From Sinorhizobium terangae (GTDB lineage Bacteria; Pseudomonadota; Alphaproteobacteria; Rhizobiales; Rhizobiaceae), in NCBI RefSeq assembly GCF_009601505.1, contig NZ_WITC01000115.1:1-64000 (forward strand): DNA of 64,000 bases, in the 5' to 3' direction. The position numbers and the translations under genes were made by a program. Shown one piece after another: positions 5,757-30,766 of this stretch (positions are counted from its first letter, which is position 1; the number at the start of each line of letters is the position of its first letter). The notes below the pieces were generated by a model. The model was not told where the DNA came from and made no database searches. It saw only the letters and a list, made by a program, of their open reading frames with translations.

Positions 5757-6124
5757 TACGCAACAGCACCCGATCGGTGCGTCGACCAGAGCGCGCGTTC
5801 CGCCGTTCTGGTCGAAATCCGTCCAGACCTGTTCGTTCAGGCCTCCCTTGGTGGCGTATTCCCGCGACATCCTGTGACCTCCGCTGCGATTTGCGGCCGC
5901 ACGGCCAGAAAGACCACGTCGGTGCTGTCTGCGACAGCCTGATTGTCTTCGGCAATCGTGACCTGCGGATAGGTGGCCGCGAGATTCGCTGCGATTTCGG
6001 CGTTGCGGGGCGCGACAACGATCGGGTTGGTGAATGCCGGGTCGGCAAGCAGACCCGTGATGATCGCCTTGCTGATCGTTCCCGTCCCGAGAAAGCCAAT
6101 CGGACCGGTGATGACATCGCTCAT
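5746..6124 (-). pseudogene. proC: proC remnant (pyrroline-5-carboxylate reductase) with internal deletion
   Basis: The first ~85 codons encode a ProC Rossmann start (ITGPIGFLGTGTISKAII, then DVVFLAVRPQIAAEV). At about 5870 the frame jumps directly to a ProC C-terminal motif (EYATKGGLNEQVWTDF) in another frame, and a further shift leads to a plausible natural end, TDRVLLRITK-stop at 5746. ProC is normally about 260-275 residues, so roughly half has been deleted and the frames no longer match. The start codon overlaps the stop of the GntR gene (ATGA at 6121-6124), showing it was once the second gene of a GntR-proC operon. A functional product is very unlikely. Confidence 0.8.
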
Positions 6125-6837
6125 TCTGCGGCGCTCAATGGCACGAGAGGAGCTTCGGTGGTGTAGTTTTCGCGCATGAAATTGATGAAGTTGTCCTGGA
6201 ATTGACGGGTATGGGCGTGGGCGAGTTCGTCTGCTCGCTCCACATCGCGGTTGCGGATCGCTTCCAGCATCAGATTGTGCTCGTCGGTGAGGAGATAGCC
6301 TTCATGCGTCCTCTCGAGATATTCGAAATGCAGGTGCAGCATGCGCTGGCCTTGTCCCAGAAGCCGTTCATAGAACGAGGCAAGAAAGGGATTTTTTCCT
6401 GCATCCGCGATGGCCATGTGGAAGCGCTTGTTGGCTTCGGACATCGAGAGGTGAACGCCGGTCTTGACCGCCGCCTCGAATTCCTTCTGGCGCTTGGCAA
6501 TGATCTTGAGATCGGCGTCGGTGCGCAGTGTCGCCGCAAGGCGCGTGTTCATGCGCTGAGCGATGTCCAGGGCTTCGACATATTTCGGGAATGTCCCGAC
6601 TTCAATCGGCGCGACGATAGTGCTGCGGTTGGAAAGGGTGACCACCAGATCTTCGCCCGCCAGGCGGATCAGCGCCTCCCGGACGGGCGAGCGCGACATG
6701 TCGAAACGCTCGGCAAGCGTCGTCTCATCGAGAAGCTGGCCGGGCTGCAATCTCAGCCCCAGGATCTCGGCTCGCAGCGTATCGTAGACGCTTTTCCAGC
6801 CGGTGCCACGGATGCGCCTAGGTTCCTGTTCTTCCAC
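6121..6837 (-). CDS. GntR-family regulator (FCD type), candidate hydroxyproline repressor
   Basis: DNA-binding repressor or activator of 238 residues. A winged helix-turn-helix fills about residues 14-78 (LAERFDMSRSPVREALIRLAG) and an all-helical FCD ligand domain about 85-215, with conserved His positions (RFHMAIADAG, HLHFEY). It is divergent from hypD, with a 209-base gap holding one full 17-bp operator and an extra TGTCGACA, the arrangement expected for an autoregulated HypR-like protein. It closely resembles the regulator at 39588 in the motif NRS-IVAP after the wing. The best-placed candidate to bind all six 17-bp sites in the window; that assignment is inference. Confidence 0.85.
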   Translation of the reverse strand: MEEQEPRRIRGTGWKSVYDTLRAEILGLRLQPGQLLDETTLAERFDMSRSPVREALIRLAGEDLVVTLSNRSTIVAPIEVGTFPKYVEALDIAQRMNTRLAATLRTDADLKIIAKRQKEFEAAVKTGVHLSMSEANKRFHMAIADAGKNPFLASFYERLLGQGQRMLHLHFEYLERTHEGYLLTDEHNLMLEAIRNRDVERADELAHAHTRQFQDNFINFMRENYTTEAPLVPLSAAE

Positions 6838-6889: not shown

Positions 6890-6941
6890 TGTCGACAAGG
6901 ATTTTTTCATCTTGACTTTGTCGACATTAAGACGACATAAC
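6890..6941 (+). promoter_or_regulatory. hypD operon promoter with operator copy C and extra TGTCGACA
   Basis: TTGACT at 6912-6917 and CATAAC at 6936-6941 are 18 bases apart. The operator GTCGACATTAAGACGAC fills 6920-6936, nearly the entire spacer. A second TGTCGACA palindrome lies at 6890-6897, 29 bases upstream, and could serve the divergent GntR gene. The leader to ATG 7047 is about 100 bases. Confidence 0.65.
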
Positions 6942-7046: not shown

Positions 7047-7925
7047 ATGAAACTCACCGGCGTCATGCCTGCCTTGGTCACCCCTTTCGACAAAAACAAC
7101 AAGATCGACTTCAAGTCGTTTGAAAAGCTTCTGGCCCATCTGCGTGAGGCAGGAGTGACCGGTTGGGTGCCGAACGGTTCGACGGGTGAATATTTCAGCC
7201 AGACCACCGAGGAGCGCCGCGACGTCCTGCAGTTCGTCAAGGACTTCGCCAAGCCGGGCGAAATCCTGATCGCCGGCACGAATGCGCCGGCCACGCGCGA
7301 GGTTATCGAGCAGACCGAGCTCGCCAAGAAGATCGGCTATGACACGGTTCTGCTCGCGCCACCCTTCTACACCCGCCCGACCCAGGAAGAGCTGATCAAG
7401 CACTATGAAACCGTGCTTGCCGCGGTCGACGTCAACCTCGTGCTCTACAGCTACCCGGCGAAGGACGGCTCGGACATAAGCTTCGAACTGATGGAGCACT
7501 TTGCCGACAATCCGCGTGTCATCGGCATCAAGGAAAGCTCGGGCGTGTTGCAGCGGGCGATCGATATCGCCAGCCGCTACGAGGGCAAGATCCAATTGGT
7601 CAGCGGTTCCGACGATATTGCGCTCGACTTCATGTTCTGGGGTGCGGAAAGCTGGATTTGCGGACCGTCGAACTGCATGGCCAAAGCCTGCTGCGATCTC
7701 GACCGCACCTACAAGTCAGGTGATATCGCCAAGGCGCGCGAGATGATGAAGACCCTCTATCGTGCGATGAACATCCTCGAATCCGGAAAATTCGTCCAGA
7801 AGATCAAGTATGGCTGCGACCTGCAGGGCTTGCCCGTCGGCGAGTGCCGCGCGCCGCTCGGCCCCCTGACCGATGCCGAGAAGGCCGAGTTCAAGGCCGC
7901 GATGCAGCCGATCCTCAACTGGTAA
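7047..7925 (+). CDS. hypD: Delta1-pyrroline-4-hydroxy-2-carboxylate deaminase (DapA/DHDPS family)
   Basis: Predicted to deaminate and dehydrate 1-pyrroline-4-hydroxy-2-carboxylate to 2-oxoglutarate semialdehyde plus ammonia, the third step of 4-hydroxyproline breakdown. It is a 292-residue TIM-barrel protein of the DHDPS/NAL family, with the GSTGE carboxylate loop (44-48), Tyr in LYSYP (about 134-136) and the Schiff-base lysine in GIKESSG (Lys162). ATG 7047 has GGAGC 7 bases upstream; longer in-frame starts from 6864 would run through the promoter and operator and are rejected. It heads an operon with hypO and hypH homologues, which supports the HypD role over dihydrodipicolinate synthase or other aldolases of this fold. 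Confidence 0.85.
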   Translation: MKLTGVMPALVTPFDKNNKIDFKSFEKLLAHLREAGVTGWVPNGSTGEYFSQTTEERRDVLQFVKDFAKPGEILIAGTNAPATREVIEQTELAKKIGYDTVLLAPPFYTRPTQEELIKHYETVLAAVDVNLVLYSYPAKDGSDISFELMEHFADNPRVIGIKESSGVLQRAIDIASRYEGKIQLVSGSDDIALDFMFWGAESWICGPSNCMAKACCDLDRTYKSGDIAKAREMMKTLYRAMNILESGKFVQKIKYGCDLQGLPVGECRAPLGPLTDAEKAEFKAAMQPILNW

Positions 7926-7994: not shown

Positions 7995-9029
7995 ATGCGG
8001 TTCAAAAAGGTGCTCTCCGTCGTCGAATGCCATGCGGAGGGCGAGAGCGGAAAGGTCATTGTCGGCGGCGTCGGACAGGTGCCGGGCAAGACGATGTTCG
8101 ACAAGAAACTTCATTTTGAAAATCACATGGACGAGATCCGCAAGATGGTGCTGTTCGAGCCGCGCGGTGCCGTCTGGCACAATGCCAATATCGTACTGCC
8201 GTCCAACCATCCAGATGCGGATATGGGCTATGTGATCCTCGAAACCACCGAATATCCCGCCATGTCCGGGTCGAACACGATGTGCGTCGCGACCGTGCTT
8301 CTGGAAACGGGGATCCTTCCCATGCAGGAGCCGGTCACCGAGCTGGTACTTGAGGCGCCGGCAGGCCTCATCCGTGTGCGCTGCGAATGCCGAGACGGCA
8401 AGGTGACGAGCGTCCGTCTGGTGAACCAGCCTGCCTTTTGCTACCACGTCGACAGCAAGATCGAGGTTGACGGCCTGGGTACGGTCGGGGTCGACATCGT
8501 CTATGGCGGCATGACCTATGTGATGGTCGACGCTGCAACACTCGGCTTTTCGATCGATCCGTCCGAAGCGCGGGAACTGTGCGAACTCGGGCAGCGGCTG
8601 AAAGCCGCCGCGGTGGAGCAGCTTGCGGTCGAACATCCCGAAAACCCTGCCATTCCGGGCATCACCAACACGGAATTCATGGGCCCGCTGCGCCGCGAGA
8701 ACGGCCAACTGGTGTCAAAGAATTGCGTCGTCGTTTCTCCCGGCCGCTGTGATCGCTCGCCCTGCGGCACGGGTTCGTCGGCCCGCTTGGCCCTGCTTCA
8801 TGCCAGAGGTCTGATCGCGCCCGGGGAAACACTGGTGCATGAATCCATCACCGGCAGCCGCTTTTTGTGCACCATCGACGGTTTGGCCAAGGTCGGTCGA
8901 TACGACGCCGTCATTCCCGCGATATCTGGCCAGGCATGGATCACCGGCTTTCACCAGATGGGCATGGATCCGACCGATCCGTATCCGAATGGCTTCACGG
9001 TGGCCGACACCTGGATGGCAACTGTTTGA
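7995..9029 (+). CDS. Proline racemase-family enzyme, Ser/Cys variant (hydroxyproline epimerase-like)
   Basis: A 344-residue member of the proline racemase superfamily. The first catalytic position is serine (Ser91 in AMSGSNTMC, where MCGH is usual) and the second is cysteine (Cys257 in DRSPCGTGSSA). The family is known to contain Cys/Cys, Ser/Cys and Cys/Thr classes; the missing threonine argues against a trans-3-hydroxyproline dehydratase. It sits between hypD and hypO, so epimerization of a hydroxyproline isomer is likely. It differs clearly from the Cys/Cys enzyme at 1958 and is most like the one at 27654. The exact isomer handled is not deducible. Confidence 0.8.
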   Translation: MRFKKVLSVVECHAEGESGKVIVGGVGQVPGKTMFDKKLHFENHMDEIRKMVLFEPRGAVWHNANIVLPSNHPDADMGYVILETTEYPAMSGSNTMCVATVLLETGILPMQEPVTELVLEAPAGLIRVRCECRDGKVTSVRLVNQPAFCYHVDSKIEVDGLGTVGVDIVYGGMTYVMVDAATLGFSIDPSEARELCELGQRLKAAAVEQLAVEHPENPAIPGITNTEFMGPLRRENGQLVSKNCVVVSPGRCDRSPCGTGSSARLALLHARGLIAPGETLVHESITGSRFLCTIDGLAKVGRYDAVIPAISGQAWITGFHQMGMDPTDPYPNGFTVADTWMATV

Positions 9030-9045: not shown

Positions 9046-10293
9046 ATGAGCACTTCATCCACGATCGCAATTGTCGGCGCCGGCGTTATCGGCACCACGC
9101 TGGCTTATGACCTGCAGCGCCGCGGGCATTCCGTCCAGTTGATCGAGCGGGATGGTCCGGGCACCGGAGCAAGCTTTGGCAATATGGCAAGCATTGCCGT
9201 GACCGAGTTCATGCCCGCTTCCCGACCGGCGATCTGGAAACAGATGCCCAAATGGCTTCTCGACCCGGAAGGCCCGGTGCGTGTCCGGCCGTCCTATATG
9301 CCGCGGCTTATCCCCTGGTTCCTGCGTTTTCTGGCAGCAAGCCGTCCCTCGAAGCTTCGCGAACTCGAAGCAGCAGGCGCGGTCCTCTGCCATCGCGTGC
9401 ATGAGGACCTCGATGCGCTCCTGAAAGAGACCGGTCTGACTCACATGCTGAGCGCCGAAGGCTGCCTCAGCCTCTATGCCGACGAGGCCGAGTTCAAGGC
9501 CGATCGCGATCATATCGAGATCCTGGAGCGCTTCGGCTTCCGCCACGAAATCCTCGGCGGCAACGCCATCCGCGACCTTGAGCCGGCACTGACGACGAAG
9601 ATCGGCAAAGCGGTGCTCTTTCCCGACAACCGGTCGGTTGCAGACCCTTACAGGCTCGTCATCGCTCTCGCCGAACGCTTCCAGGCCCTCGGCGGTACGA
9701 TCATTCGCGGCGACGTCGGCGGCTTCGACGTTGGCGAGGGCGGGGTGAAGGCTGTCCGCCTGAAGGACGGCCGCGCCATCAATGCCGACAAGACCGTGCT
9801 TGCGGCCGGCGTCTTTACCGCCCGCATGGCCGGGGATCTCGGCGAGCCGATCCCGCTCGAAACCGAACGCGGCTATCACACCCAGATCATGGATCCCGGT
9901 ATTTCCATGCGCCATTCGATCATCTGGCCGGCCAAGGCCTTCATGGTGACACCGACGGCAGGCGGCATCCGCGTCGGCGGCACGGTGGAAATGGCGGGCA
10001 TCGACGCCGCACCGGACTATCGCCGCGCCAAGATCACCGTCAAGCGCGCGCTCGAAGCTCTGCCCGATTTGAAAGTGCGTCAGACGAGTGAATGGATGGG
10101 CCACCGTCCGGCCTTCCCAGACACGGTGCCTGTCATGAGCGCCTCTGCCAGGCATCGCGATCTCTATTATGCGACCGGCCATGGCCATCTCGGGCTCACC
10201 TATGCCGCGACCAATGCGCGGCTGATGGGGGACCTGATTTCCGGGGTCACCCCGCCCGTCGATCTTACCCCCTATCGTGTCGACCGGTTCTGA
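9046..10293 (+). CDS. hypO: FAD-dependent D-amino-acid (D-hydroxyproline) dehydrogenase, DadA family
   Basis: Predicted to oxidize cis-4-hydroxy-D-proline to 1-pyrroline-4-hydroxy-2-carboxylate, passing electrons to the respiratory chain. The 415-residue protein starts with a dinucleotide-binding motif (IAIVGAGVIGTTLAYDL) and GxSxGN-like FAD contact (ASFGNMASIA), and ends with the DAO-family motif GHRPAFPDTVPVMS and GHGHLGLTYA. ATG 9046 lies 16 bases after the previous stop; longer in-frame starts overlap the upstream gene. Position between the epimerase and the semialdehyde dehydrogenase genes supports the HypO role. A paralogue of the same family is at 37131, with different context. Confidence 0.8.
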   Translation: MSTSSTIAIVGAGVIGTTLAYDLQRRGHSVQLIERDGPGTGASFGNMASIAVTEFMPASRPAIWKQMPKWLLDPEGPVRVRPSYMPRLIPWFLRFLAASRPSKLRELEAAGAVLCHRVHEDLDALLKETGLTHMLSAEGCLSLYADEAEFKADRDHIEILERFGFRHEILGGNAIRDLEPALTTKIGKAVLFPDNRSVADPYRLVIALAERFQALGGTIIRGDVGGFDVGEGGVKAVRLKDGRAINADKTVLAAGVFTARMAGDLGEPIPLETERGYHTQIMDPGISMRHSIIWPAKAFMVTPTAGGIRVGGTVEMAGIDAAPDYRRAKITVKRALEALPDLKVRQTSEWMGHRPAFPDTVPVMSASARHRDLYYATGHGHLGLTYAATNARLMGDLISGVTPPVDLTPYRVDRF

Positions 10294-10317
10294 GCCGGGT
10301 TGCCAATGGAGTATCTG

Positions 10318-11808
10318 ATGCAGGACAAACTCTATATCGATGGAAAATGGGTTGCCCCCGCAAAGGGCGGCACGGCCGATGTCATCAATCCAGCGACAGA
10401 AGAGGTGATCCAGCAAATCGCGCTCGCAACCGAGGAGGATGTCGATCTCGCCGTGAAGGCAGCGCGACGCGCCTTCGACAAGGATGGTTGGCCGAAGCTC
10501 ACCGGCGCCGAGCGCGCCAAATATCTGCGCGCCATCGCGGCCGGCATTCGCGCCCGGCAGGCCGATATCGCCCGGCTTGAAGTGCTCGACAATGGCAAGC
10601 CTTTCCCGGAGGCGGACTGGGACATCGCCGACGCTGCCGGTTGCTTCGATTTCTATGCCGGGCTGGCTGAGGAATTCGACACGAAATCCGTCGAGCCGGT
10701 CCTGCTCGGCGATGCCCGCTTCACCTCCAAGGCGGTCAAGGAGCCAATGGGCGTCGTCGGAGCGATTGTCCCCTGGAACTATCCCTTGCTTATGGCATCG
10801 TGGAAGGTGGCGCCGGCGCTTGCGGCAGGTTGCACGGTCGTGCTGAAGCCGGCTGAACTCACCTCGCTGACCGCCCTTGAACTGGCCGCCATCGCCGATG
10901 ATGTTGGATTGCCGGCCGGCGTGCTGAACGTCGTGACAGGGGCGGGTTCGATCGCCGGACAGGCCGTCGTCGACCACCCCCTTGTTGACAAGCTCGCCTT
11001 CACCGGCTCCGGCCCCGTCGGCTCGAAGATGATGGCGCAGGCAGCGCGAGACGTAAAGCGCATCAGCCTCGAGCTTGGCGGCAAGTCGCCTTTCGTCGTT
11101 TTCGACGATGCCGATATCGAACAGGCCGTCGAGTGGATCATGTTCGGCATCTTCTGGAACCAGGGACAAGTCTGCTCGGCGACCTCCCGCGTTCTGGTGG
11201 AGCAGGGCATCTATGAGAGGCTGCTTGCCCGCCTGATCGAGGAAACCAGGAAGATCACCATCGGCAATGGCCTCGATGACGGGATCCTGCTCGGACCGCT
11301 CGTTTCTGCGCGACAATATTCGAACGTCGTGCGCGATATAGAGAAAGCAAAGGCAACTGGCGCGACCATTGCTTGCGGCGGCAAGCGCCCTGATGGTTTC
11401 GACAAGGGTTATTACCTGGAACCCACTATCCTGACTGACGTGCCGCTCGACAGCGAGGCGTGGGTCGAGGAAATCTTCGGACCGGTGGTTTGCATCCGCC
11501 CGTTTGCTACGGAAGAAGAGGCAATCCATCTCGCCAATGACAGCCGCTTCGGGCTTGCCGCAGCCGTAATGTCCAAGGACGATGCGCGCACTGAGCGTGT
11601 CGCAGCCGCCTTCCGCGCCGGCATTGTCTGGATCAACTGCTCGCAGCCGACTTTCACCGAAGCGCCGTGGGGCGGCTACAAGCAGTCCGGAATCGGCCGC
11701 GAACTTGGCCGCTGGGGCTTTGAAAACTATCTCGAAACCAAGCAGATCACCCGATTTGCCACCGATGATCCCTGGGGTTGGTACATCAAGCCGGAGGCAC
11801 GCCGGTGA
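10318..11808 (+). CDS. hypH: Aldehyde dehydrogenase, probable 2-oxoglutarate semialdehyde dehydrogenase
   Basis: NAD(P)-dependent aldehyde dehydrogenase of 496 residues, expected to oxidize 2-oxoglutarate semialdehyde made by HypD to 2-oxoglutarate. It has the substrate-binding PWNYPLLMASWK segment, the general base Glu252 in LELGGKSP, and the nucleophile Cys286 in NQGQVCSATSR. The overall style is close to betaine-aldehyde dehydrogenases, so the aldehyde is assigned from neighbours. ATG 10318 is preferred because GGAG lies 6 bases upstream; ATG 10306 and TTG 10300 are in frame. Its stop overlaps the GTG start of the next gene (GTGA), so translation is probably coupled. Confidence 0.8.
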   Translation: MQDKLYIDGKWVAPAKGGTADVINPATEEVIQQIALATEEDVDLAVKAARRAFDKDGWPKLTGAERAKYLRAIAAGIRARQADIARLEVLDNGKPFPEADWDIADAAGCFDFYAGLAEEFDTKSVEPVLLGDARFTSKAVKEPMGVVGAIVPWNYPLLMASWKVAPALAAGCTVVLKPAELTSLTALELAAIADDVGLPAGVLNVVTGAGSIAGQAVVDHPLVDKLAFTGSGPVGSKMMAQAARDVKRISLELGGKSPFVVFDDADIEQAVEWIMFGIFWNQGQVCSATSRVLVEQGIYERLLARLIEETRKITIGNGLDDGILLGPLVSARQYSNVVRDIEKAKATGATIACGGKRPDGFDKGYYLEPTILTDVPLDSEAWVEEIFGPVVCIRPFATEEEAIHLANDSRFGLAAAVMSKDDARTERVAAAFRAGIVWINCSQPTFTEAPWGGYKQSGIGRELGRWGFENYLETKQITRFATDDPWGWYIKPEARR

Positions 11809-12557
11809 GCAAGGCGCTTTCCGGCCAGACCATCCTGGTGACCGGTGCATCGGGCGAGATTGGCCGCGCTATTGTCAAGGCTTTGGCAGAGGACGGCGCC
11901 CGGCCGATCATTCATTACGGCCGCGACCGAGCCGGCGCGGAAAGGCTGAATGCCGAAATCGACGGAAGAGGCATCATCGTGTCTGCCGATCTGTCGGCGG
12001 CGGATGGCGCTTCCGCGCTCTGGCAGCGCTCGCTCGAAGCGGCGGGTCGCATCCATGGGCTGGTCAACAATGCCGGAATCTTGAGCCGCATTGCGATCGA
12101 CGCCGATCTCGATCAATGGCGCTCAGTTTGGCAAAGGGATTTCCAGGTCAATTTCTTTGCCGCCGCCGATCTCGCGAAAGAAGCAATCCGGCATTTCAAG
12201 GCGAATGGTGGTGGACGCATCATCAACATGGCGAGCCGGGCGGGCCAGCGCGGCTATGCGGCTGACGCAATGCCCTATGGCGCGACGAAGGCGGCGCTCG
12301 TCAATCTGACCAAATCGATCGCCCGCAGCTTCGGCGCCGACGGCGTGACCGCGATTGCGCCCGGATGGGTGCGTACCCGCATGGCTGAGGAGTTCGTTGC
12401 CAAGAACGGTAAGCAGGCGGCGGTTGGAGAAATTCCAATCGGCGAAATGGCGGAACCGGAAGCGGTCGCTGAATTGGTAGCCTTCGCCCTTCGCGCCTCG
12501 CAGGCATCGCTGAACGGCGCGACACTCGACGTCAATGGTGGCAGCTACATCCGTTAG
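11805..12557 (+). CDS. SDR-family oxidoreductase
   Basis: Classical short-chain dehydrogenase of 250 residues with TGASGEIG (13-20), NNAG (88-91), Ser144, Tyr158 and Lys162 (YGATK). It starts with GTG 11805, overlapping the aldehyde dehydrogenase stop; GGAGG is about 7 bases upstream. It is followed after 11 bases by a second SDR. Two consecutive SDRs in a hydroxyproline operon suggest oxidation or reduction of ring-hydroxyl or keto intermediates that the core pathway cannot take, but no substrate can be named. Confidence 0.8.
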   Translation: MSKALSGQTILVTGASGEIGRAIVKALAEDGARPIIHYGRDRAGAERLNAEIDGRGIIVSADLSAADGASALWQRSLEAAGRIHGLVNNAGILSRIAIDADLDQWRSVWQRDFQVNFFAAADLAKEAIRHFKANGGGRIINMASRAGQRGYAADAMPYGATKAALVNLTKSIARSFGADGVTAIAPGWVRTRMAEEFVAKNGKQAAVGEIPIGEMAEPEAVAELVAFALRASQASLNGATLDVNGGSYIR

Positions 12558-12568
12558 GGAGAGATCGA

Positions 12569-13324
12569 ATGCAACGTTTCGAAGGCAAAGTCGCGGTGGT
12601 CACCGGCGCTGGCGGCGGAATAGGCTCGGCGATTGCCAAGCGCCTCGCCTCTGAAGGCGCGTTGGTTGTTGTAACGGACGGCAATGCAGAGGCTGCCAAG
12701 GCGGTGACGGCAGATATCCGCGCCGCTGGCTGGCAGGCCGAAACGATTACGGCAAACATCGCGGAGAAAGGCGAATGCGCTTCGCTGATTTCGGATAGCT
12801 TTGCGCTGCATGGTCGCCTCGACGCGCTGGTCAACAATGCGGGCATCAACCGGCGCGGCAACCTGCTGTCGCTCTCCGACGAGGACTGGTCGATCAGCTT
12901 TGCCGTCAATCTCGATTCGATGTTTCATTTGTGCCGGGCTGCCCTGCCGCTGATGATCGAAGCCGGTGGCGGCGCTATCGTTAATACCGCCTCGCAATGG
13001 GGTCTCTATCCCGCACCCAACCACATCGCCTACAACACGACCAAGGCCGCCGTTGCCGCCTTTACCCAGAATCTCGCGCGCGACTATGCGCCGGTCAAGA
13101 TCCGCGTGAACGCCGTCTGCCCCGGCGAAATCCACACGCCGATGCTGGAAGCGGGGGTCAAGCGGTCCGGCCGCACGATTGCCGACCTCGACAAGCTGGT
13201 TCCCTTCGGACGTATCGGCAAGCCCGAGGAAGTCGCCGCACTCGTCGCCTTCCTCGCCTCGGACGAGGCGCAATTCATCTGCGGCTCGCTGGTCGAGATC
13301 ACCGGCGCGCAGCCGGTGTCGTGA
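12569..13324 (+). CDS. SDR-family oxidoreductase (3-oxoacyl-ACP-reductase-like)
   Basis: Second SDR in tandem, 251 residues, with TGAGGGIG (12-19), NNAG (89-92), Ser142, Tyr155 and Lys159 (YNTTK) and a typical C-terminal SLVEITGAQPVS end. GGGAGAG precedes ATG 12569. It is clearly different from the SDR before it, so the pair is not a recent tandem duplication. Its stop is followed within 11 bases by the start of the Pyr2C/Pip2C reductase gene. The role is probably oxidation of a ring hydroxyl on a proline analogue, by context only. Confidence 0.8.
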   Translation: MQRFEGKVAVVTGAGGGIGSAIAKRLASEGALVVVTDGNAEAAKAVTADIRAAGWQAETITANIAEKGECASLISDSFALHGRLDALVNNAGINRRGNLLSLSDEDWSISFAVNLDSMFHLCRAALPLMIEAGGGAIVNTASQWGLYPAPNHIAYNTTKAAVAAFTQNLARDYAPVKIRVNAVCPGEIHTPMLEAGVKRSGRTIADLDKLVPFGRIGKPEEVAALVAFLASDEAQFICGSLVEITGAQPVS

Positions 13325-18984: not shown

Positions 18985-18985
18985 C

Positions 18986-20395: not shown

Positions 20396-20545
20396 CTGGA
20401 CACTCGATTGCTGCATGCGCGGTCCGGCACGAGCAGGGCGCAACATGTCGCCCGCTCGGCAGGCAGCCCCCGCGGTTGAAGTCTGGGTGAAGTTCGCTTG
20501 CGGCGACGTCTCAGGCCGCCAACGGAGCTCAACATACGCAAAAGG

Positions 20546-20563
20546 GCTATTGTCGACAATAGC
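20546..20563. promoter_or_regulatory. 18-bp perfect palindromic operator GCTATTGTCGACAATAGC
   Basis: An exact inverted repeat centred on TGTCGACA in the divergent region between the kinase operon (minus) and the GntR gene at 20649 (plus). It shares the TGTCGACA core with the 17-bp elements but lacks the second CGAC block, so it may be the site of the neighbouring GntR protein itself. The rest of the 20396-20648 gap holds nothing else recognized. Confidence 0.65.
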
Positions 20564-21413: not shown

Positions 21414-21443
21414 TTGACGATGTCGACACTAAGACGACATAAT
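21414..21443 (+). promoter_or_regulatory. Transporter-operon promoter P1 with operator copy E
   Basis: TTGACG at 21414-21419 and CATAAT at 21438-21443, 18 bases apart; the operator GTCGACACTAAGACGAC lies at 21422-21438 inside the spacer, as in the hypD promoter. Distance to ATG 21822 is nearly 380 bases. Confidence 0.6.
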
Positions 21444-21484: not shown

Positions 21485-21536
21485 TTGACATTGTCGACAT
21501 TAGAACGACTAATAATAAAGTCGACATTAGAACGAC
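21485..21536 (+). promoter_or_regulatory. Promoter P2 with exact tandem operators F and G
   Basis: TTGACA at 21485-21490 with CTAATA at 21509-21514 forms a second promoter. GTCGACATTAGAACGAC is present twice without mismatch, at 21493-21509 and 21520-21536, starts 27 bases apart. The stretch 21537-21821 that follows is a long leader in which no gene or other element was recognized; the frame is open through it but shows no protein resemblance. Confidence 0.6.
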
Positions 21537-21821: not shown

Positions 21822-22856
21822 ATGAGAAATGCTTTGAAGCTTGCAATAGCGCTTCTTTCACTTTCGGCGGCTGTGCCGCCCGCTGCGATGGCCGCCCCGG
21901 GTGATACGCTCAAGGCAGTCCAGGCGCGCGGTGCTCTCAACTGCACGTCCAGCGATGGCAACTTCGAAGGTTTCGCCGAAGTTGACGCACAGGGCAACTG
22001 GCACGGCCTCGACATCGACTATTGCCGCGCCGTCGCAACCGCCATTTTCGGCAATGACGACAAGCTGAAGCTGATCCCGATCAGCTGGGCCCAGCGCTTC
22101 CCGTCACTGCAGTCGGGTGAAATCGACCTGGTCATCAAGGCAAGCGGCTGGCTGTTCAGCCGCGATACCGAACTCGGCCTGCAGTTCTCGATGCCCTACT
22201 TCATTGGCGTCACGACCTTTATGGCGCATAAAGACCTTTCCGCCAAATCCTTGGCTGATCTTGCTGGCGGGACAGTTTGCGTCGCCGGCGGCACGTCGAC
22301 CGAGAAGCTCGTCAGCGACTACATCAAGGAAAAGAAATACGAGGTCAAGGTCGTAACCTTCGAGAAGAACACCGAAGCCACCGCCGCCTATTTCGCCAAC
22401 CGTTGCGATGCCTATGCCGAATGGGGCCCGATCGTTGCGGCAACGCGCGCGACCTCGGCCGATCCGGATAACCACGACATCCTGTCAGACGCGCTGTCGC
22501 TCGAAGGCGAGGCGATCGTCATGCGCCAGGGCGACGATAACTGGGTCGACATCGCCAACTGGGTCATTGCCGCGCAGCGCATAGCCGAGGAAAATGGCGT
22601 GACCTCGAAGAACATCGACGAGATGAAGGCTAACCCGCCGAACACCGTCGTCGGCAAGCTGCTCGGAGTCACGCCCGGCATCGGCACGCGCCTCGGCCTC
22701 AAGGATGACTGGGCATACAATGTCATCAAGAAGCTCGGCAATTCCGAGGAAATGTACAACCGCAACTTCGGAACCGAGTCGCGCTATAAGCTGCCACGCG
22801 CCCTGAATTCGATGTGGAACAAGGGTGGCGTCTTCTACGCGCCGGTCCTCGACTAA
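21822..22856 (+). CDS. Polar amino-acid ABC transporter substrate-binding protein (AapJ/BztA type)
   Basis: Periplasmic binding protein of 344 residues for a general/polar amino-acid importer. A signal peptide (LKLAIALLSLSAA...AMA) precedes GDTLKAVQARGALNCTSSDG. Family motifs are NWHGLDIDYCRAVATAIFGN, FPSLQSGEIDLVIKASGW, YAEWGPIVAATRA and the C-terminal GGVFYAPVLD. ATG 21822 is preferred: AGAGGA is upstream and the signal peptide starts there. Longer starts back to 21546 give no plausible leader. It opens an operon of SBP, two permeases and ATPase whose promoters carry three copies of the hydroxyproline-region operator. S. meliloti takes up hydroxyproline by an ABC system (HypMNPQ); the same substrate class is inferred here. 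Confidence 0.85.
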   Translation: MRNALKLAIALLSLSAAVPPAAMAAPGDTLKAVQARGALNCTSSDGNFEGFAEVDAQGNWHGLDIDYCRAVATAIFGNDDKLKLIPISWAQRFPSLQSGEIDLVIKASGWLFSRDTELGLQFSMPYFIGVTTFMAHKDLSAKSLADLAGGTVCVAGGTSTEKLVSDYIKEKKYEVKVVTFEKNTEATAAYFANRCDAYAEWGPIVAATRATSADPDNHDILSDALSLEGEAIVMRQGDDNWVDIANWVIAAQRIAEENGVTSKNIDEMKANPPNTVVGKLLGVTPGIGTRLGLKDDWAYNVIKKLGNSEEMYNRNFGTESRYKLPRALNSMWNKGGVFYAPVLD

Positions 22857-22866
22857 AGATCGCCGT

Positions 22867-22893
22867 CCTCCGCCGGGCTTGTTCCGGCGGAGG
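22867..22893 (+). terminator. Intercistronic hairpin after the binding-protein gene
   Basis: CCTCCGCCGG, a 7-base loop, then CCGGCGGAGG gives a 10-bp stem 10 bases after the stop, followed by a T-rich TTCATTTCATTTT. Such attenuating hairpins commonly keep binding protein in excess over permease; here it would be a partial terminator, since the permease gene follows 47 bases on. Confidence 0.65.
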
Positions 22894-22940
22894 TTCATTT
22901 CATTTTATGCCTCCTCGTGAGGCGAGGTGGACATGGACCC

Positions 22941-24077
22941 ATGACCTTTTCGTTCGGAAACCGCAAACAGCGCGATATCCTCTTGCAGGCTGTCTTCCTC
23001 GCCGTCGTCCTGACCTTGCTGCTCATCGCCGTGATGACGACGCGACGAAATCTCGAAATCCAGGGCCTGAGTGTCGGATGGAGTTTTCTGAACTATGCGA
23101 CGGGCTCTTCCATCGTCTTTTCCTTGATCCACTATGATCTTGATTCAAGCTTTGCCCGCGCGCTGCTGGTCGGCTTCATCAACACGCTGTTTCTTGGGAC
23201 GATCTCGGTCTCGCTGGCGGTCCTCCTCGGCACGGTTATCGGGACGGCGCGGCTCTCCAGCCACAAGCTGGTCAAGTCCATCGCCGGCGTCTATGTGCAA
23301 ATCTTCCGCAACATTCCGCTGATCCTCCAGGCCTTCTTCTGGTATGCGATTTTCGTGAATTTCCCCTCGCCACGCCAAGCGATCGCTGTGCCGGGCGGTT
23401 TCTTCATGTCCAACCGCGGCATCTTCTTTCCGATGTTCAACATCGAGGCTTGGTATCTTCTGGCCGCGATCGCGATCTTTATCATCGGCTCAATCATTTC
23501 CGTTGCCGTTGCGCGCCGCACGGGCCGCGGCTCGTCGCTGGTCGGGATCTTTCTCTCGCTGGCACTCGCCTTCATCGTCGGTTATGCCGGACGCCTCGCC
23601 GACACGCCGTTGTTTGATATGCCCCAGCCAAAAGGCCTGCGCTTTCTCGGCGGCGGCACGATGACGCCGGAACTTGGATCCGCCATCGTTGCGATCGCGC
23701 TCTTTGGTGCATCTTATGTCGCCGAAATTGTCCGCGCCGGCTTTCTTTCCATCCCAACCGGATTGATCGAAGCCGCCCATGCGCTCGGCCTTGGCAACTG
23801 GCACGTCTTCTGGCGCATCCGCTTGCCACTGATGATACGGCGCATCCTGCCGACGATGACCAACCAGATCATCTGGCTGATGAAAGCCACCACGATCGGC
23901 ATTGCCATCGGGTTTCCGGATTATTTCGGCGTGGTCGCCAATTCGATCAACCATTCCGGCCAGACGATCTCGCTGATTTTCCTACTGATCATCGGCTTCT
24001 GGGCGATCAACATGACCATCTCCATCACCATGAACGCGATCAATCGGGCGCTTGCCCTGCCGGGACATAAGAAATGA
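22941..24077 (+). CDS. Amino-acid ABC transporter permease (AapQ/BztB type)
   Basis: Inner-membrane subunit of about 378 residues with a long N-terminal region and several hydrophobic helices (LLQAVFLAVVLTLLLIAVM, LLAAIAIFIIGSIISVAVA and others). The ATPase-contacting EAA loop reads EAAHALGLGNWHVFWRIRLP. The extra central helices between about residues 170 and 240 mark the Aap/Bzt group rather than short His-type permeases. ATG 22941 is chosen; GTG 22917 is in frame. Its stop overlaps the start of the next permease (ATGA). Confidence 0.85.
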   Translation: MTFSFGNRKQRDILLQAVFLAVVLTLLLIAVMTTRRNLEIQGLSVGWSFLNYATGSSIVFSLIHYDLDSSFARALLVGFINTLFLGTISVSLAVLLGTVIGTARLSSHKLVKSIAGVYVQIFRNIPLILQAFFWYAIFVNFPSPRQAIAVPGGFFMSNRGIFFPMFNIEAWYLLAAIAIFIIGSIISVAVARRTGRGSSLVGIFLSLALAFIVGYAGRLADTPLFDMPQPKGLRFLGGGTMTPELGSAIVAIALFGASYVAEIVRAGFLSIPTGLIEAAHALGLGNWHVFWRIRLPLMIRRILPTMTNQIIWLMKATTIGIAIGFPDYFGVVANSINHSGQTISLIFLLIIGFWAINMTISITMNAINRALALPGHKK

Positions 24078-25171
24078 GAGCGGAAACGATGACGGCCACC
24101 ACGGACATTCAGGCGCCGGTGTTGAACGGCAGCCTCCTCGACAGCGTAAGGCGCGACTACTTCTCCTCGGTCGGACGCACGATCCTCACCTTGGTTTGCC
24201 TGGCGTTGATCCTTTCAGCCCTGTGGTTTCTCGTAAACTGGGGACTGGTCGATGCCGTCTGGTTCGGCACGCCCGAGGACTGCCACAAGGCTGCCGGCGC
24301 CTGTTGGGCCGTCATCACCGACCGCTATCGCCTGATCTTCTTCGGCCTTTACCCCTATGAGGAGCAGTGGCGTTCGGCGCTTGCGTGCCTCGCCATCCTT
24401 GCGACCGTCATTCTGTCGTGCGTTCCATTCTTCTGGTCCGCGAAACGGCTGCCGGTGCTATGGGCCCTCGGCTACGGCCTGTTCTACTTTCTCATGAAAG
24501 GCGGCGTGTTTGGCATGCCCGTCGTGCTCGAAACCCAATGGGGCGGGCTCGCGCTGACAGTCTTCGTCTTCTCGTCCACCGTTGTCATCGGCATGCCGCT
24601 CGCCATAGTTCTTGCGCTGTTGCGACGCTCCAGTCTGCCGGTGGTCTCGACGGTCACGGCACTCTGCATAGATGGCATTCGTTCGCTGCCGCTTCTCTCC
24701 ATTCTGTTCACCGCCGCTATCATCCTGCCTTTGACGCTGCCGGGTTTCCTGGTTGGCGACAAGCTGTACCGCGTCATTATCGGCGCCGCCGTCTTCTTTG
24801 CGGTCTACCAGGCGGAAATCATTCGGAGCGGCATCCAGTCTTTGCCCGCAGGGCAAGAGGAAGCGGCAACCGCGCTTGGCCTCAATTACTGGCAGACGAT
24901 CTCGCGCATCATCCTGCCGCAGGCTTTCCGCTTTGCGCTACCGCCGACGATCAACCAGGTGGTGATCGCGTTCATGGAAACGGCCCTGATCGTCATTCTG
25001 GGCTTCTTCGAGATCACGGCGTCCGGCAATGCGGCCTTTTCGACAGGCGGATGGAAGCCGTTCCATATCGAGGTCTATAGCTTTGTCGCTCTGATCTACT
25101 TCGTCTTCACTTACTCGCTTTCGATGTATGGCAGTTATCTCGAACGGTCCATGAAATTGGGTTCGCGGTAG
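24074..25171 (+). CDS. Amino-acid ABC transporter permease (AapM/BztC type)
   Basis: Second inner-membrane subunit, 365 residues, with helices such as ILTLVCLALILSALWFLVNW and ALTVFVFSSTVVIGMPLAIV and the EAA loop EEAATALGLNYWQTISRIIL. Family-typical end is VFTYSLSMYGSYLERSM. ATG 24074 overlaps the previous stop; ATG 24089 is an alternative. It pairs with the subunit at 22941 to form the heterodimeric channel. The 96 bases to the ATPase gene hold no recognized element. Confidence 0.85.
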   Translation: MRAETMTATTDIQAPVLNGSLLDSVRRDYFSSVGRTILTLVCLALILSALWFLVNWGLVDAVWFGTPEDCHKAAGACWAVITDRYRLIFFGLYPYEEQWRSALACLAILATVILSCVPFFWSAKRLPVLWALGYGLFYFLMKGGVFGMPVVLETQWGGLALTVFVFSSTVVIGMPLAIVLALLRRSSLPVVSTVTALCIDGIRSLPLLSILFTAAIILPLTLPGFLVGDKLYRVIIGAAVFFAVYQAEIIRSGIQSLPAGQEEAATALGLNYWQTISRIILPQAFRFALPPTINQVVIAFMETALIVILGFFEITASGNAAFSTGGWKPFHIEVYSFVALIYFVFTYSLSMYGSYLERSMKLGSR

Positions 25172-25267
25172 CACGAGAAGCGGCAAGCATGTGTCGGGCT
25201 TCGGATACGGCATGACAGACATTCCCGCGCTCTTCGGCGCGACGGCAGGATTTTGGGAGTAATGAAA

Positions 25268-26014
25268 ATGACCACAAGCGCTCTGGCGATCGAAGTCGAC
25301 GGTCTGTGCAAATATTACGGCGCACATCAAGTTCTTCACGGAGTGAACCTAACGGTGAAAGCGGGTGAAAAGATCGTCGTCTGCGGTCCATCTGGTTCGG
25401 GCAAGTCGACCCTGATCCGCTGCCTCAACAAGCTCGAGGAACATCAGCAGGGCAGTATCCGCGTGCTCGGCACCGAACTCAATGACGAGATCGACAATAT
25501 CAACGAGATCCGTCGCGAAGTCGGCATGGTGTTCCAGCATTTCAATCTCTTCCCGCATCTGACGGTGCTGGAAAATTGCATGCTGGCACCGATGCTGGTC
25601 CGCAAAATCGATCGCAAGACTGCCGAGGAACAGGCCATGACCTATCTCGAGCGCGTCAAGATCCCGCAGAAAGCGAAGAACTATCCCGGGGAACTGTCTG
25701 GCGGCCAACAGCAGCGCGTGGCGATTGCCCGGGCTCTGTGCATGAAGCCGGAAATCATGCTGTTCGATGAACCGACCTCGGCGCTCGATCCGGAAATGAT
25801 TTCGGAAGTACTCGACGTCATGATCCAACTTGCCCAGGGCGGCATGACCATGGTCTGCGTGACCCACGAAATGGGCTTTGCCCGCAAGGTCGCCGATCGG
25901 GTGATCTTCATGGACCAGGGAAAGATCGTCGAAGATGCGCCGCCGGCAGACTTCTTCGACAACCCGCAGCATGCGCGGTCGAAACTCTTCCTCAGCCAGA
26001 TACTTGGGCACTGA
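25268..26014 (+). CDS. Amino-acid ABC transporter ATPase (AapP/GlnQ type)
   Basis: Cytoplasmic ATPase energizing the importer, 248 residues. Walker A is GPSGSGKST, the Q-loop region [13 protein letters not shown], the ABC signature LSGGQQQR, Walker [13 protein letters not shown] and the switch histidine [11 protein letters not shown] 25268 is preferred because GGGAGT lies 7 bases upstream; ATG 25262 is too close to it. The sulfatase gene starts only 12 bases after its stop, so transporter and sulfatase are co-transcribed, which implies that the sulfate ester is what the transporter brings in. Confidence 0.9.
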
Positions 26015-26026
26015 GAGGGCGCGGAC

Positions 26027-27586
26027 GTGCAACCGGTCTCGGAAAAGCCGAATATTCTTCTCGTCATGGCCGATCAGATGACCGCGATTGCCCTGTCCAT
26101 TTATGGCAATCGGGTATGCAAGACGCCCAATATCGACCGGCTGGCCGGGCAGGGTTCGGTGTTCGACAATGCCTATTGCAACTATCCGCTCTGCGCGCCG
26201 TCCCGGTTTGCCTTGATGACCGGCCGCTTGCCGTCGCGGATCGGCGCTTTCGACAACGCCTCCGAATTTCCCGCCGCCGTGCCGACGCTTGCGCACTATC
26301 TGCGCGATGCGGGCTACTATACGTGCATATCGGGCAAGATGCATTTTGTCGGGCCCGACCAGCATCATGGCTATGAAGATCGTCTGACAACGGAAATCTA
26401 TCCGGCCGATTTCAGCTGGGTTCCTCCGAAGACCTATGACGAGCTGGAGGCGGAAGAACTCAAGGCCAAGGGGGAGGTTCCCTTCGGCGTATCCAGCGTC
26501 GAAACAATCGCCGATGCCGGGCCGCTCGCGCGCTCGCAGCAGATCGACTATGACGACGAGGTCGCCCGCCGCGCGACCCAGCATATCTATGACTGGCGAC
26601 GCTACGGAGATGGGCGGCCGCTGTTCATGACGGTGTCCTTCACCCAGCCGCACGACCCTTATGTAACCACGCGCGACTACTGGGATCTCTACACGGACGA
26701 AGCGATCGATCCACCACGGACACCCGCGATCCCGCTAGAGGAAATGGATCCGCACAGCCGTTCGCTCTATTTCCACTACAGCCTCGACAAGTTCGAGGTG
26801 ACTGATGCCATCTACCGCCGCGCGCGGCGCGGCTATTACGGCATGATCAGCTATGTGGATCGCAAGCTCGGCGAACTCAGGCAAACGCTGGAAGATGCCG
26901 GCATTGCCGACAATACGGTGATCATCTTCACCTCCGACCACGGTGACATGATCGGTGAGCGCGGCCTGTGGTTCAAGAAGAACCTCTTCGATCCGGCGAT
27001 CCGCGTGCCGCTGGTGCTCTATGATCCGCGACGGCAGGGCCTGAAGCGCGTCGCCGCGCCGGTTTCGCTCATCGATATCCTGCCGACATTGGTCGACCTC
27101 GCCAGCGGTTCGCTGGATGCGCTCGTCACCGATCACGAGGGCGACAGCCTTTTGCCCCTGCTGAGCGAGGACAGGCCGGACCGGACGGTCTACGCCGAGC
27201 ATCTCGACGGAGGCACCAACGCGCCACGCGTCATGCTCCGACGCGGCCCTCATAAACTCGTCGCCTCCGAAGCCTATCCGATGCAGCTTTATGATCTGGC
27301 CGCCGACCCGGGTGAGACGCGCAATCTGGCGGACGAGACTGAATGGCGCGAAACGGTGGAGGCGCTAAAGGCCGGGGTGCGAAAAACTTGGAACCTGGCG
27401 GCTCTGAAACAGGATGTGATGCGCAGCCAGCGCGTCCGCCAGTTCGTCAATCGCGCCATGCAGAAAGGTAAGCTGCGGGACTGGGAGCACTATCCCGACC
27501 CGATCCGCGAGCACACCAAATTTGTCCGCACAGGCGAACGCTTCCCCGAGGTGGAGAGACGATCCTATCTGCCTTACGGCGATTGA
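26027..27586 (+). CDS. Sulfatase, choline-sulfatase (BetC) type
   Basis: Type I formylglycine-dependent sulfatase of 519 residues. The modification motif C-x-P-S-R is at Cys56-Arg60 (LCAPSRFALMTGRLPSRIG), with the N-terminal metal-site segment ILLVMADQM and the later SGKMHFVGPDQHHG and FTSDHGDMIGERGLW. The whole pattern follows choline-O-sulfatases (BetC). There is no signal peptide, so it acts in the cytoplasm on an imported ester. GTG 26027 is the start, with GAGAGGG upstream. No choline dehydrogenase (betA/betB) or choline transporter is nearby; instead it is between a polar amino-acid ABC transporter and a proline-racemase-family gene. A sulfated hydroxy-amino acid is a better fit than choline sulfate, but this is inference. 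Confidence 0.85.
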   Translation: MQPVSEKPNILLVMADQMTAIALSIYGNRVCKTPNIDRLAGQGSVFDNAYCNYPLCAPSRFALMTGRLPSRIGAFDNASEFPAAVPTLAHYLRDAGYYTCISGKMHFVGPDQHHGYEDRLTTEIYPADFSWVPPKTYDELEAEELKAKGEVPFGVSSVETIADAGPLARSQQIDYDDEVARRATQHIYDWRRYGDGRPLFMTVSFTQPHDPYVTTRDYWDLYTDEAIDPPRTPAIPLEEMDPHSRSLYFHYSLDKFEVTDAIYRRARRGYYGMISYVDRKLGELRQTLEDAGIADNTVIIFTSDHGDMIGERGLWFKKNLFDPAIRVPLVLYDPRRQGLKRVAAPVSLIDILPTLVDLASGSLDALVTDHEGDSLLPLLSEDRPDRTVYAEHLDGGTNAPRVMLRRGPHKLVASEAYPMQLYDLAADPGETRNLADETEWRETVEALKAGVRKTWNLAALKQDVMRSQRVRQFVNRAMQKGKLRDWEHYPDPIREHTKFVRTGERFPEVERRSYLPYGD

Positions 27587-27653
27587 GGACGCACCTCCTG
27601 AAGGACACTAGAATAGTATAGTCGGGCCGCGTGCCCGCAAATGAGAGGCCTCC

Positions 27654-28688
27654 ATGAAATTCGACCAAAAGCTTGAAATTCTCCAGGTTCATTGCGAGGG
27701 AGAAATCGGCAATGTTCTCGTCGCCGGCGCGCCGGAAATTCCCGGTGCAACCGCGTTGGACAAGATGAACTACATCAACAATGTCGACGACAGCCTCCGC
27801 CGTTTCGTGACGTTCGAGCCGCGCGCGAATGTCGCCATGACCGTCAATTTGCTGCTGGAACCCACCCGTCCCGACGCGGATGCCGGCTTCATCGTGCTCC
27901 AGGCCGACCGTGCGCATGCAATGTCGGGCTCGAACTGCATCTGCGTCGTGACAGCGCTTCTCGAGAGCGGCCGGGTGGCCATGGTTGAGCCCGAAACGAT
28001 TGTGCGTCTCGATATGCCGGCAGGACTGGTCACAGCGCGGGCGCACTGCGAAAATGGCCGTTGCCTTTCCGTCAGCATCGACAATGTCCCGGCCTTTGCG
28101 GAAGCTCTCGACCAGGAGATCGACACGCCGCGCTGGGGCCGGATCAAGGCCGACATCTGCTTCGGCGGCGTCTATTACGGTCTGGTCGATGTCGAGCAGG
28201 TCGGGCTTACCATTGAGCCGAAGAATGCGCGCGCACTGGCCGAGGCCGGCATTGAGTTGAAGGCCCTGCTGGCGGAGCAGGTCAAGGTCCGGCACCCGAC
28301 CTTGCCGGGTGTCGATGAGATCGCCTATGTGATGTTCCGTTCTCAGGAGCCGGATGGCGCAGTGCGCACCTGCACGACGCTGAAACCCGGCCGCGTCGAC
28401 CGCTCGCCCTGCGGTACCGGCAGCTCGGCCAATCTTGCAAGCCTTCACGCGCGTGGTCTGATCGTGGTCGGAGAGACTAAGGTCTCTCGCTCGATCATCG
28501 GTGGGGAATTCCATGTTCAGGCGCTGGAGGAAACCGAAGTGGGCGGACGCAAGGCGGTCATCCCGCGGATCACCGGCCAGGGCTTCGTCTATGGCAAGCA
28601 GGAATTGCGCCTCGTCACCGATGATCCCTTCGTCAAGGGCTTTGCCCTTTCCGACACCTGGGGTCCGCAGGTGCATCTTCTGGACTGA
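27654..28688 (+). CDS. Proline racemase-family enzyme, Ser/Cys variant (second copy)
   Basis: A 344-residue proline racemase superfamily protein, with Ser91 (AMSGSNCIC) at the first catalytic position and Cys253 (DRSPCGTGSSAN) at the second, like the enzyme at 7995. It shares the FEPRAN, PDADAGFI and TGQGFVYGKQE framework with that copy but is well diverged, so it is an older paralogue. GAGAGG lies 5 bases before ATG 27654. It is the last gene of the transporter-sulfatase operon and is followed by a strong terminator. Likely role: epimerizing the (hydroxy)proline-like acid after desulfation so that a D-specific dehydrogenase such as the one at 9046 can oxidize it. Confidence 0.8.
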   Translation: MKFDQKLEILQVHCEGEIGNVLVAGAPEIPGATALDKMNYINNVDDSLRRFVTFEPRANVAMTVNLLLEPTRPDADAGFIVLQADRAHAMSGSNCICVVTALLESGRVAMVEPETIVRLDMPAGLVTARAHCENGRCLSVSIDNVPAFAEALDQEIDTPRWGRIKADICFGGVYYGLVDVEQVGLTIEPKNARALAEAGIELKALLAEQVKVRHPTLPGVDEIAYVMFRSQEPDGAVRTCTTLKPGRVDRSPCGTGSSANLASLHARGLIVVGETKVSRSIIGGEFHVQALEETEVGGRKAVIPRITGQGFVYGKQELRLVTDDPFVKGFALSDTWGPQVHLLD

Positions 28689-28705: not shown

Positions 28706-28739
28706 GGCTCCATGCCTCCGGGCATGGAGCCATTTTTTT
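28706..28739 (+). terminator. Rho-independent terminator of the transporter-sulfatase operon
   Basis: GGCTCCATGCC, loop TCCG, GGCATGGAGCC form an 11-bp stem 17 bases after the stop at 28688, followed by ATTTTTTT. This closes the operon that starts at 21414. The remaining bases to 28822 show nothing recognizable. Confidence 0.9.
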
Positions 28740-29485: not shown

Positions 29486-29673
29486 CAATACGCCCTTGGG
29501 CCTTAAACATTGAAGTTTGTCGTAGCAGCCTCTGCTTAGCATTTCCATGCTCACGGCAAACTCTAGCACCGCGGAAACAGACCGTTTTCGCGTTCGAAAA
29601 GATATTGCCGGCGCGTTCTAACCTATTGAATTTGCGGCATAATAAAATACTCCGGTTTTTGGTTTTGGCGCGA

Positions 29674-29735
29674 TTGACAGCAAGCCGAAAACGGGTTAGC
29701 TCTCTCCTTAATAAACTAAATAGTTCTATAAGAAC
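29674..29735 (+). promoter_or_regulatory. Candidate promoter and TetR-type inverted repeat
   Basis: TTGACA at 29674-29679 with a weak TTAGCT 16 bases on (29696-29701), then an inverted repeat GTTCT-ATA-AGAAC at 29723-29735, just before GAGGGG and ATG 29752. The location suits a repressor site downstream of the promoter; the -10 match is poor. Confidence 0.4.
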
Positions 29736-29751
29736 AAGAGGGGTCTTGAGA

Positions 29752-30759: not shown

Positions 30760-30766
30760 GGTCGAG

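Follow-up and report, generated by a model that had tools for sequence, protein, structure and literature searches.

A choline-sulfatase relative with an altered choline site in a candidate operon for sulfated hydroxyproline-like compounds of Sinorhizobium terangae

What does a sulfatase of the choline-sulfatase type act on when its gene lies between those of an amino-acid importer and a proline-racemase-family epimerase? This arrangement occurs in Sinorhizobium terangae (NCBI RefSeq assembly GCF_009601505.1) within positions 1 to 64,000 of contig NZ_WITC01000115.1, a stretch of 64,000 nucleotides referred to here as the window. Six co-directional genes on the + strand (21822-28688) encode a substrate-binding protein (SBP), two permeases and the ATPase of an Aap-type amino-acid ATP-binding cassette (ABC) importer, the sulfatase and a Ser/Cys proline-racemase-family protein (i.e. 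PRac3). The initial annotation had read this locus as a system for sulfated hydroxy-amino acids, and the gene order, the intact CAPSR motif (Cys56) and the catalytic pair of PRac3 were present as described. No signal peptide was apparent by eye in the sulfatase, for which a cytoplasmic location had been proposed, and BetI, BetB and BetA matches were absent within 10 kb at the thresholds used, in agreement with the statement that no choline genes are near. We consider it somewhat probable that the importer, sulfatase and epimerase feed an O-sulfated hydroxy-imino acid (with 4-hydroxyproline O-sulfate or a near relative of it as the likeliest case) into a HypO-HypD-HypH route.

The sulfatase was compared with TIGR03417, the NCBIfam equivalog model for choline-sulfatase. 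A score of 603 bits was obtained against a cut-off of 433, and four members of the clade described below scored 578-603 bits; BetC of the same genome, encoded in a separate and complete betI-betC-betB-betA set elsewhere, reached 889 bits. As the cut-off lets clade members pass, the label 'choline sulfatase' is likely wrong for the four that were scanned. Residues 5-513 of 519 aligned with S. meliloti BetC, the closest solved structures were choline sulfatases and a Choline_sulf_C domain was detected (30.4 versus 27 bits). All ten S1 catalytic residues checked (CxPxR, metal-binding Asp/His, catalytic Lys/His) were retained, and features shared with BetC (PDB 6fny, 7pth, 6g60) included the metal ligands, Lys102, His104, His201, Lys309, Asn75 and Trp129. 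According to the accessible text of two papers on BetC, Trp129 and His145 clamp the quaternary ammonium and Asn146-Asp500 form a gate (PMC9063841, PMC5870055), whilst Glu386 provides the charge that gives specificity and is fully conserved in >80 choline sulfatases (PMC5870055). Unlike BetC, the window sulfatase lacked His145, Glu386 (replaced by Gly), the gate and the WYHN hairpin (replaced by GVSS), leaving the clamp (GW-x13-WYHN) half kept; its tail read VRxGxxFPxVE, it had gained Arg392, Lys310 and Asp385, and bet genes did not lie within 10 kb. The choline clamp of crystallized BetC holds HEPES by its piperazine ring, as described in the accessible part of PMC9063841, so that the parent site can accommodate a cyclic amine.

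A protein search with the sulfatase scored 7999 candidates, of which 4493 passed an E-value of 1e-120, and residues were counted in the best 120 of these 4493. All ten catalytic residues were present in 116, the other four being cut or changed. Gly occupied position 386 in 120/120 and His145 was found in 0/120 (Ser in 116, Gly in 4); Trp129 was retained in 119, and the strict form of all three clade motifs occurred in 87. Addition of 18 loci gave 138 clade rows. Residues typical of the clade at or near the pocket (i.e. Lys310, Gly143, Ser145, His383, Asp385, Gly386 and Arg392, BetC numbering) were present in 97–100% of these rows, as compared to ≤10% of 16 BetC-like rows, which were picked for carrying BetC residues and whose function is not proven. 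Individual values were 100% for Lys310, Gly386 and Arg392, 99% for His383 and 97% for Asp385. Arg392 and Lys310 could bind a carboxylate. A less selected control was provided by 14 non-clade sulfatases from a search of the class (L074-L087; 45–50% identity to the query), in which Glu386 was present in 14/14 and His145 in 12/14. The clade formed one side of a branch (30 rows) in a 71-row tree, with a Shimodaira-Hasegawa-like approximate likelihood ratio test (SH-aLRT) support of 100. This tree omits the truncated L015, and both L091 and L073 (on the same contig as L014) were dropped from the tree and from the 10-kb counts given below.

Four fungal proteins (P0014, P0019, P0024 and P0064, from Exophiala, two Clonostachys and Thozetella) were 72–78% identical to the window sulfatase. 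Three of them (P0014, P0019 and P0024) grouped together amid Rhizobiales sequences in the tree, and the fungal members reflect either bacteria-to-fungi transfer or contamination. Three members of the broad FGE-sulfatase Pfam family were encoded in the genome. A further sulfatase match adjoined a gene of this family (G000:C70:54117-56166).

Three GTCGACAYTARRACGAC-like candidate operators lay upstream of the transporter-sulfatase-racemase operon. Searching with GTCGACATTAGAACGAC and allowing ≤3 mismatches gave 6 matches in the window versus 0.09 expected from shuffles. Three preceded the ABC-sulfatase operon (21422, 21493, 21520) and one preceded the HypD-like operon (6920). The other two (3024, 3091) fell within the 1 kb that separates the genes for a 4-hydroxyproline epimerase (1958-2965) and a cis-3-hydroxyproline dehydratase (4026-5756), each of which received its name from an NCBIfam model above cut-off. 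The three hydroxyproline-type operators previously noted therefore exceed chance. A stricter pattern, TTGTCGACAYNNNRNCGAC, occurred 4 times in the 7.08-Mb genome versus 0 for the backward-read pattern, and all four sites (window 3089, 6918 and 21491, and C116:30912) preceded hydroxyproline-type operons. Several candidate operators directly followed a TTGAC -35-like box, a position that would be expected for a repressor. The perfect palindrome GCTATTGTCGACAATAGC was also found at window 20546-20563, between divergent GntR (20649) and glycerate-kinase genes, and is perhaps the operator of this second GntR.

The site at C116:30912 precedes a sister operon that encodes an FCD regulator, a 277-residue SBP, an ATPase, two permeases, HypD-, HypO- and HypH-like proteins, a racemase and two short-chain dehydrogenases (SDRs) but no sulfatase. 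Its transporter differs from that of the window, with an SBP lacking a BLAST match at 1e-10, an ATPase of 48% identity and permeases of 29–30% identity. Similar operons with a similar operator were present in S. meliloti pSymA, where the transporter is also different, and in R. acidisoli. The window regulator shared 85% identity with its counterpart in the operon on S. meliloti pSymA, 84% with that of R. acidisoli, 83% with the regulator next to the ABC-sulfatase operon in Shinella HZN7, 56% with that of Sulfitobacter and 49% with that of Mameliella. Genes for epimerase, HypD/O/H-like proteins and transporter are thus preceded by a common operator and have an FCD-GntR gene nearby, as in a HypR-like regulon with predicted binding. 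HypR-regulated catabolism of trans-4-hydroxyproline involves hypMNPQ, hypE, hypO, hypD and hypH, as set out in the accessible part of PMC5343134. The window likewise has an epimerase, an FAD oxidoreductase, a dihydrodipicolinate synthase (DHDPS)-family protein, an aldehyde dehydrogenase (ALDH) and a GntR-type regulator, and unlike that system, in so far as this source describes it, adds a sulfatase. The accessible text of PMC4113996 gives DHDPS, DAO, ALDH and proline racemase as the hydroxyproline set with 2-oxoglutarate as end product. The epimerase, DAO, DHDPS and ALDH families all occur in the window (6.9–11.8 kb plus 27654-28688) as assigned by family, and the term 'hydroxyproline-type' rests on this set and the two NCBIfam-named genes.

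In the pathway that we favour, the ABC importer would take up an O-sulfated hydroxy-imino acid and the cytoplasmic formylglycine sulfatase, with its changed leaving-group pocket, would cleave the S-O bond of the sulfate ester. Desulfation would precede epimerization, and the freed L-hydroxy-imino acid would be converted to the D-epimer by the Ser/Cys epimerase. Oxidation by the HypO-like FAD oxidoreductase, deamination by the HypD-like protein and oxidation of the semialdehyde by the HypH-like enzyme would then yield 2-oxoglutarate, with the cell gaining carbon, nitrogen and sulfate. PRac3 has the Ser/Cys pair, with one residue for each catalytic face, and matched 4lb0, the Ser/Cys 4-hydroxyproline epimerase of Agrobacterium vitis, with 395 bits over residues 1-339, whilst every NCBIfam model scored below cut-off. 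The gene of PRac3, a predicted epimerase, adjoins a sulfatase gene, unlike that of A. vitis. Matches of the SBP to solved structures were amino-acid SBPs and those of the HypD-like protein were DHDPS/sialate-lyase structures, none of which named the substrate. The HypO-, HypD- and HypH-like genes lie outside the sulfatase operon, at ~7–12 kb, and follow a similar operator. The single terminator of the initial annotation corresponds to the hairpin with a T tail at the operon end, to which must be added a second hairpin (22867-22893, GC-rich, 11 bp, strong, with a weaker T tail) between the SBP and first permease genes; terminator-like sites in the region numbered 13 versus 8.3 in shuffles.

Conservation of this arrangement was assessed in other genomes. 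Annotated runs in Shinella HZN7, Mameliella alba and Sulfitobacter THAF37 comprised SBP, permease, permease, ATPase, 'choline-sulfatase', DHDPS-family, FAD oxidoreductase, ALDH and racemase genes, with an aminotransferase gene inserted between ATPase and sulfatase in Mameliella and SDR or DMT genes interspersed in both marine-type loci (i.e. Mameliella and Sulfitobacter). Mesorhizobium B4-1-4 had transporter, sulfatase, HypD, HypO, ALDH and racemase genes in a single run, and S. granuli had the set as in Shinella on a contig beginning within the transporter. The sulfatase gene was directly followed by the racemase gene in S. kostiense, S. saheli, Mesorhizobium SOD10 and Rhizobium CB3090, CB3060 and NXC24, and both genes lay inside 10 kb in Rhizobium CB3171. 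Within 10 kb, a racemase was present at 13/19 clade loci versus 0/31 other sulfatase loci, an Aap-type ATPase at 16/19 versus 1/31 and an SBP at 15/19 versus 1/31. BetI, BetB and BetA were found at 0/19 clade loci and at 1, 1 and 2, respectively, of the 31 controls, a weak test because at least 28/31 controls also lack bet genes. The 31 control loci were retrieved by similarity to the query, except that L069 was obtained via its SBP, such that its transporter match is unsurprising. The clade loci are non-independent, with several per genus, and five (L010, L012, L015, L089 and L090) are truncated by contig ends on one or both sides. L098 and L107 were left out of the analysis.

Table 1. Positions of the operon, its candidate control sites and related genes in the window.
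Feature	Position	Strand	Basis or remark
SBP (SBP_bac_3), amino-acid ABC transporter	21822..22856	+	hidden Markov model (HMM) match
Amino-acid ABC permease 1	22941..24077 (open reading frame (ORF) opens 22917)	+	HMM match
Amino-acid ABC permease 2	24074..25171	+	annotation (not HMM): relatives in L061-L063 annotated amino-acid ABC permease
Amino-acid ABC ATPase (Aap-type)	25262..26014 (ORF opens 25253)	+	HMM match
S1-type formylglycine sulfatase, clade without BetC choline site	26027..27586, GTG start	+	HMM, residues, tree
CAPSR motif (Cys56 to formylglycine, predicted)	26192..26206	+	inside sulfatase
Proline-racemase family epimerase PRac3, Ser91/Cys253	27654..28688	+	best solved matches 4q2h, 4lb0
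Intrinsic-terminator-like hairpin with T tail	28706..28731	+	terminator scan
Candidate operator 1	21422..21438	+	overlaps promoter-like TTGACG-18-CATAAT
Candidate operator 2	21493..21509	+	pattern match
Candidate operator 3	21520..21536	+	pattern match
Candidate operator upstream of HypD-like operon	6920..6936	+	pattern match
FCD-type GntR regulator, probable repressor of regulon	6121..6837	-	identity to relatives
DHDPS-family protein, HypD-like deaminase by family/context	7047..7925 (searches used 6990-7925)	+	
Proline-racemase family protein PR2, Ser/Cys	7995..9029	+	
FAD oxidoreductase, HypO-like	9055..10293 (stretch used in searches; start codon approximate)	+	
ALDH ORF, HypH-like by context	10300..11808	+	
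Two SDR ORFs	11778..13324	+	relatives come after racemase in L088, L095, L106

Other genes surround the operon. A divergent run at window 15074-20446 encodes a glutamate dehydrogenase-like protein, an OCD family member ('tyramine oxidase subunit B' model), an enolase paralogue and a glycerate-2-kinase-like protein, and OCD, enolase and kinase genes also occurred in the vicinity of the sulfatase in L009 and L092-L094. The enolase paralogue carries SGRSGG at a position where enolases usually have SHRSGE. Downstream of the operon (29605-37102) lie genes for an NMT1-type ABC transporter and for HyuA/HyuB hydantoinase-oxoprolinase proteins. HyuA/HyuB genes were also downstream in L009, L010, L013, L092-L094 and L067, among which the NMT1-type transporter occurred only in L009 and L013. 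A DMFA2-like protein gene and a class-III aminotransferase gene were inserted between permease 2 and the ATPase in L013 (5516-9183), and gaps of similar size occurred in L088, L093 and L094.

Several observations weigh against the proposed pathway. Loss of Glu386 was not specific to the clade, as Ile occupied this position in 11/25 'other' related sulfatases; the residue loss therefore means 'not choline' rather than 'hydroxyproline', and the choline-sulfatase model seems to span further groups besides the clade. Asp385, next to the lost Glu386, may preserve the charge, so that some choline-sulfate activity is possible. The HypD, HypO and HypH names rest on family and context and not on the characterised S. 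meliloti hyp cluster. HypD and HypO were within 10 kb at only 5/19 clade loci (controls 0/31), and those of the window are themselves >10 kb from the sulfatase. Six of the 19 clade loci had no racemase within 10 kb: L015 and L089 are cut by a contig end, L011 and L029 keep the transporter, and L014 and L090, whose sulfatases are the first to branch within the clade on midpoint rooting, lack the transporter too. R. jaguaris (L067, not in the 10-kb counts) keeps the transporter and racemase, whereas little is left of its sulfatase gene, with residues 1-20 and 503-519 matched (E 0.001 each) in the ATPase-racemase gap (16107-16297), a pattern as after internal deletion. The clade is also rare, being detected in 3/394 genomes of the family at an E-value of 1e-150 and in 2/398 of the phylum at 1e-165; a class search at 1e-135 matched 16/385 genomes, with clade residues in three (own genome included in each of these counts). 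The sulfatase-linked SBPs formed no single clade in an SBP tree, and the alignment contained no residue that the 15 have in common and that is missing from 4 SBPs not linked to a sulfatase. Natural hydroxyproline sulfate was not found in the open-licence PubMed Central (PMC) literature. Separately, the PR1 relative in R. jaguaris was split in two pieces.

A transporter specific for a sulfated ligand found no support in the SBP alignment and tree. The reading of the locus as a system for sulfated hydroxy-amino acids is supported in part, through the absence of choline-sulfatase residues and the hydroxyproline-type link by operators, gene runs and neighbourhood counts, whereas transport of the sulfated form, and a hydroxyproline sulfate in preference to another sulfated hydroxy-imino acid as substrate, are proposals. 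Nothing on point was found in the open-licence PMC literature for sulfated hydroxypipecolate, sulfated hydroxy-amino acids or sulfatase-racemase links, and neither the paper on the HypR regulon (PMC5343134) nor the study of proline-racemase neighbourhoods (PMC4113996) mentions 'sulfatase' in its main text.

The simplest candidate substrate is 4-hydroxyproline O-sulfate. Of the four Rhizobium plasmid records that include the sulfatase, three have Gliricidia, Leucaena and Calliandra as their source (the other Phaseolus), which makes hydroxypipecolate sulfate its main rival. With such a substrate, or another six-ring or N-methylated imino acid, the architecture would be the same and the hydroxyproline-type enzymes would be adapted paralogues, which we regard as unlikely but worth serious consideration. 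R. jaguaris with its sulfatase remnant also came from Calliandra, and hydroxypipecolic acid is present in Acacia, as stated in the accessible part of PMC9658407. The back end holds two SDR genes. Plain breakdown of 4-hydroxyproline should not need SDRs; however, these also occur in sulfatase-free sister operons and hence do not mark a sulfated substrate. Sulfate esters of hydroxypipecolic acid occur in Peltophorum, although the literature search did not confirm this. The clade extends, moreover, to a Sulfitobacter from a marine aquarium and a Chromatiales bacterium associated with a bryozoan, and one of the top two solved structures matched by the epimerase (4lb0) acts on 4-hydroxyproline. A sulfated linear hydroxy-amino acid (serine, threonine or homoserine type), with the racemase and FAD enzyme processing D-forms, appears improbable: the importer family is of a general amino-acid type, some loci contain aminotransferase genes and glycerate kinase and enolase-like genes are divergent in the window and neighbour the sulfatase in L009 and L092-L094, but DHDPS, DAO, ALDH and proline racemase form the hydroxyproline set (PMC4113996, accessible part) and the operators also adjoin the cis-3-hydroxyproline dehydratase and 4-hydroxyproline epimerase genes.

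That the enzyme is an ordinary choline sulfatase, next to hydroxyproline-type genes by chance, was rejected on its residues, the regulon and the separate bet operon, and we regard it as very improbable. The TIGR03417 score above cut-off, the closest solved structures and the retained Trp129 would fit this explanation, as would an annotated choline dehydrogenase gene beside a sugar ABC system near the 10-kb edge in Shinella HZN7, which scored below the BetA threshold. They are set against the replacement of Glu386 by Gly and loss of His145 in all of the best 120 proteins, the altered gate residues of the tail, the higher score of the genome's own BetC and the clade loci lacking BetI, BetB and BetA (as do most controls). 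Least probable of all is a captured gene without a role in the pathway. Its patchy distribution in the family and near-complete loss in R. jaguaris agree with capture, but an Aap-type ATPase gene accompanies most clade loci and in the gene orders listed the sulfatase directly follows the ATPase, L062 and L089 being the exceptions, with an aminotransferase gene in between (~1 kb of L089 unread).

If the proposed pathway is true, there would be an undescribed natural pool of O-sulfated hydroxy-imino acids in both terrestrial and marine settings. One genome would hold a single catabolic module with two front ends, a plain importer and an importer plus sulfatase, with similar operators and similar back-end enzymes. 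The database name of the whole clade (at least 120 proteins) would be corrected, and a new sulfatase specificity with clear residue markers would be gained that predicts undescribed sulfated metabolites. We tentatively propose, at a little under even chances, that bacteria, and perhaps some fungi, possess a separate sulfatase subfamily under the 'choline sulfatase' name that gives dedicated access to O-sulfated hydroxy-imino acids as sources of carbon, nitrogen and sulfur.

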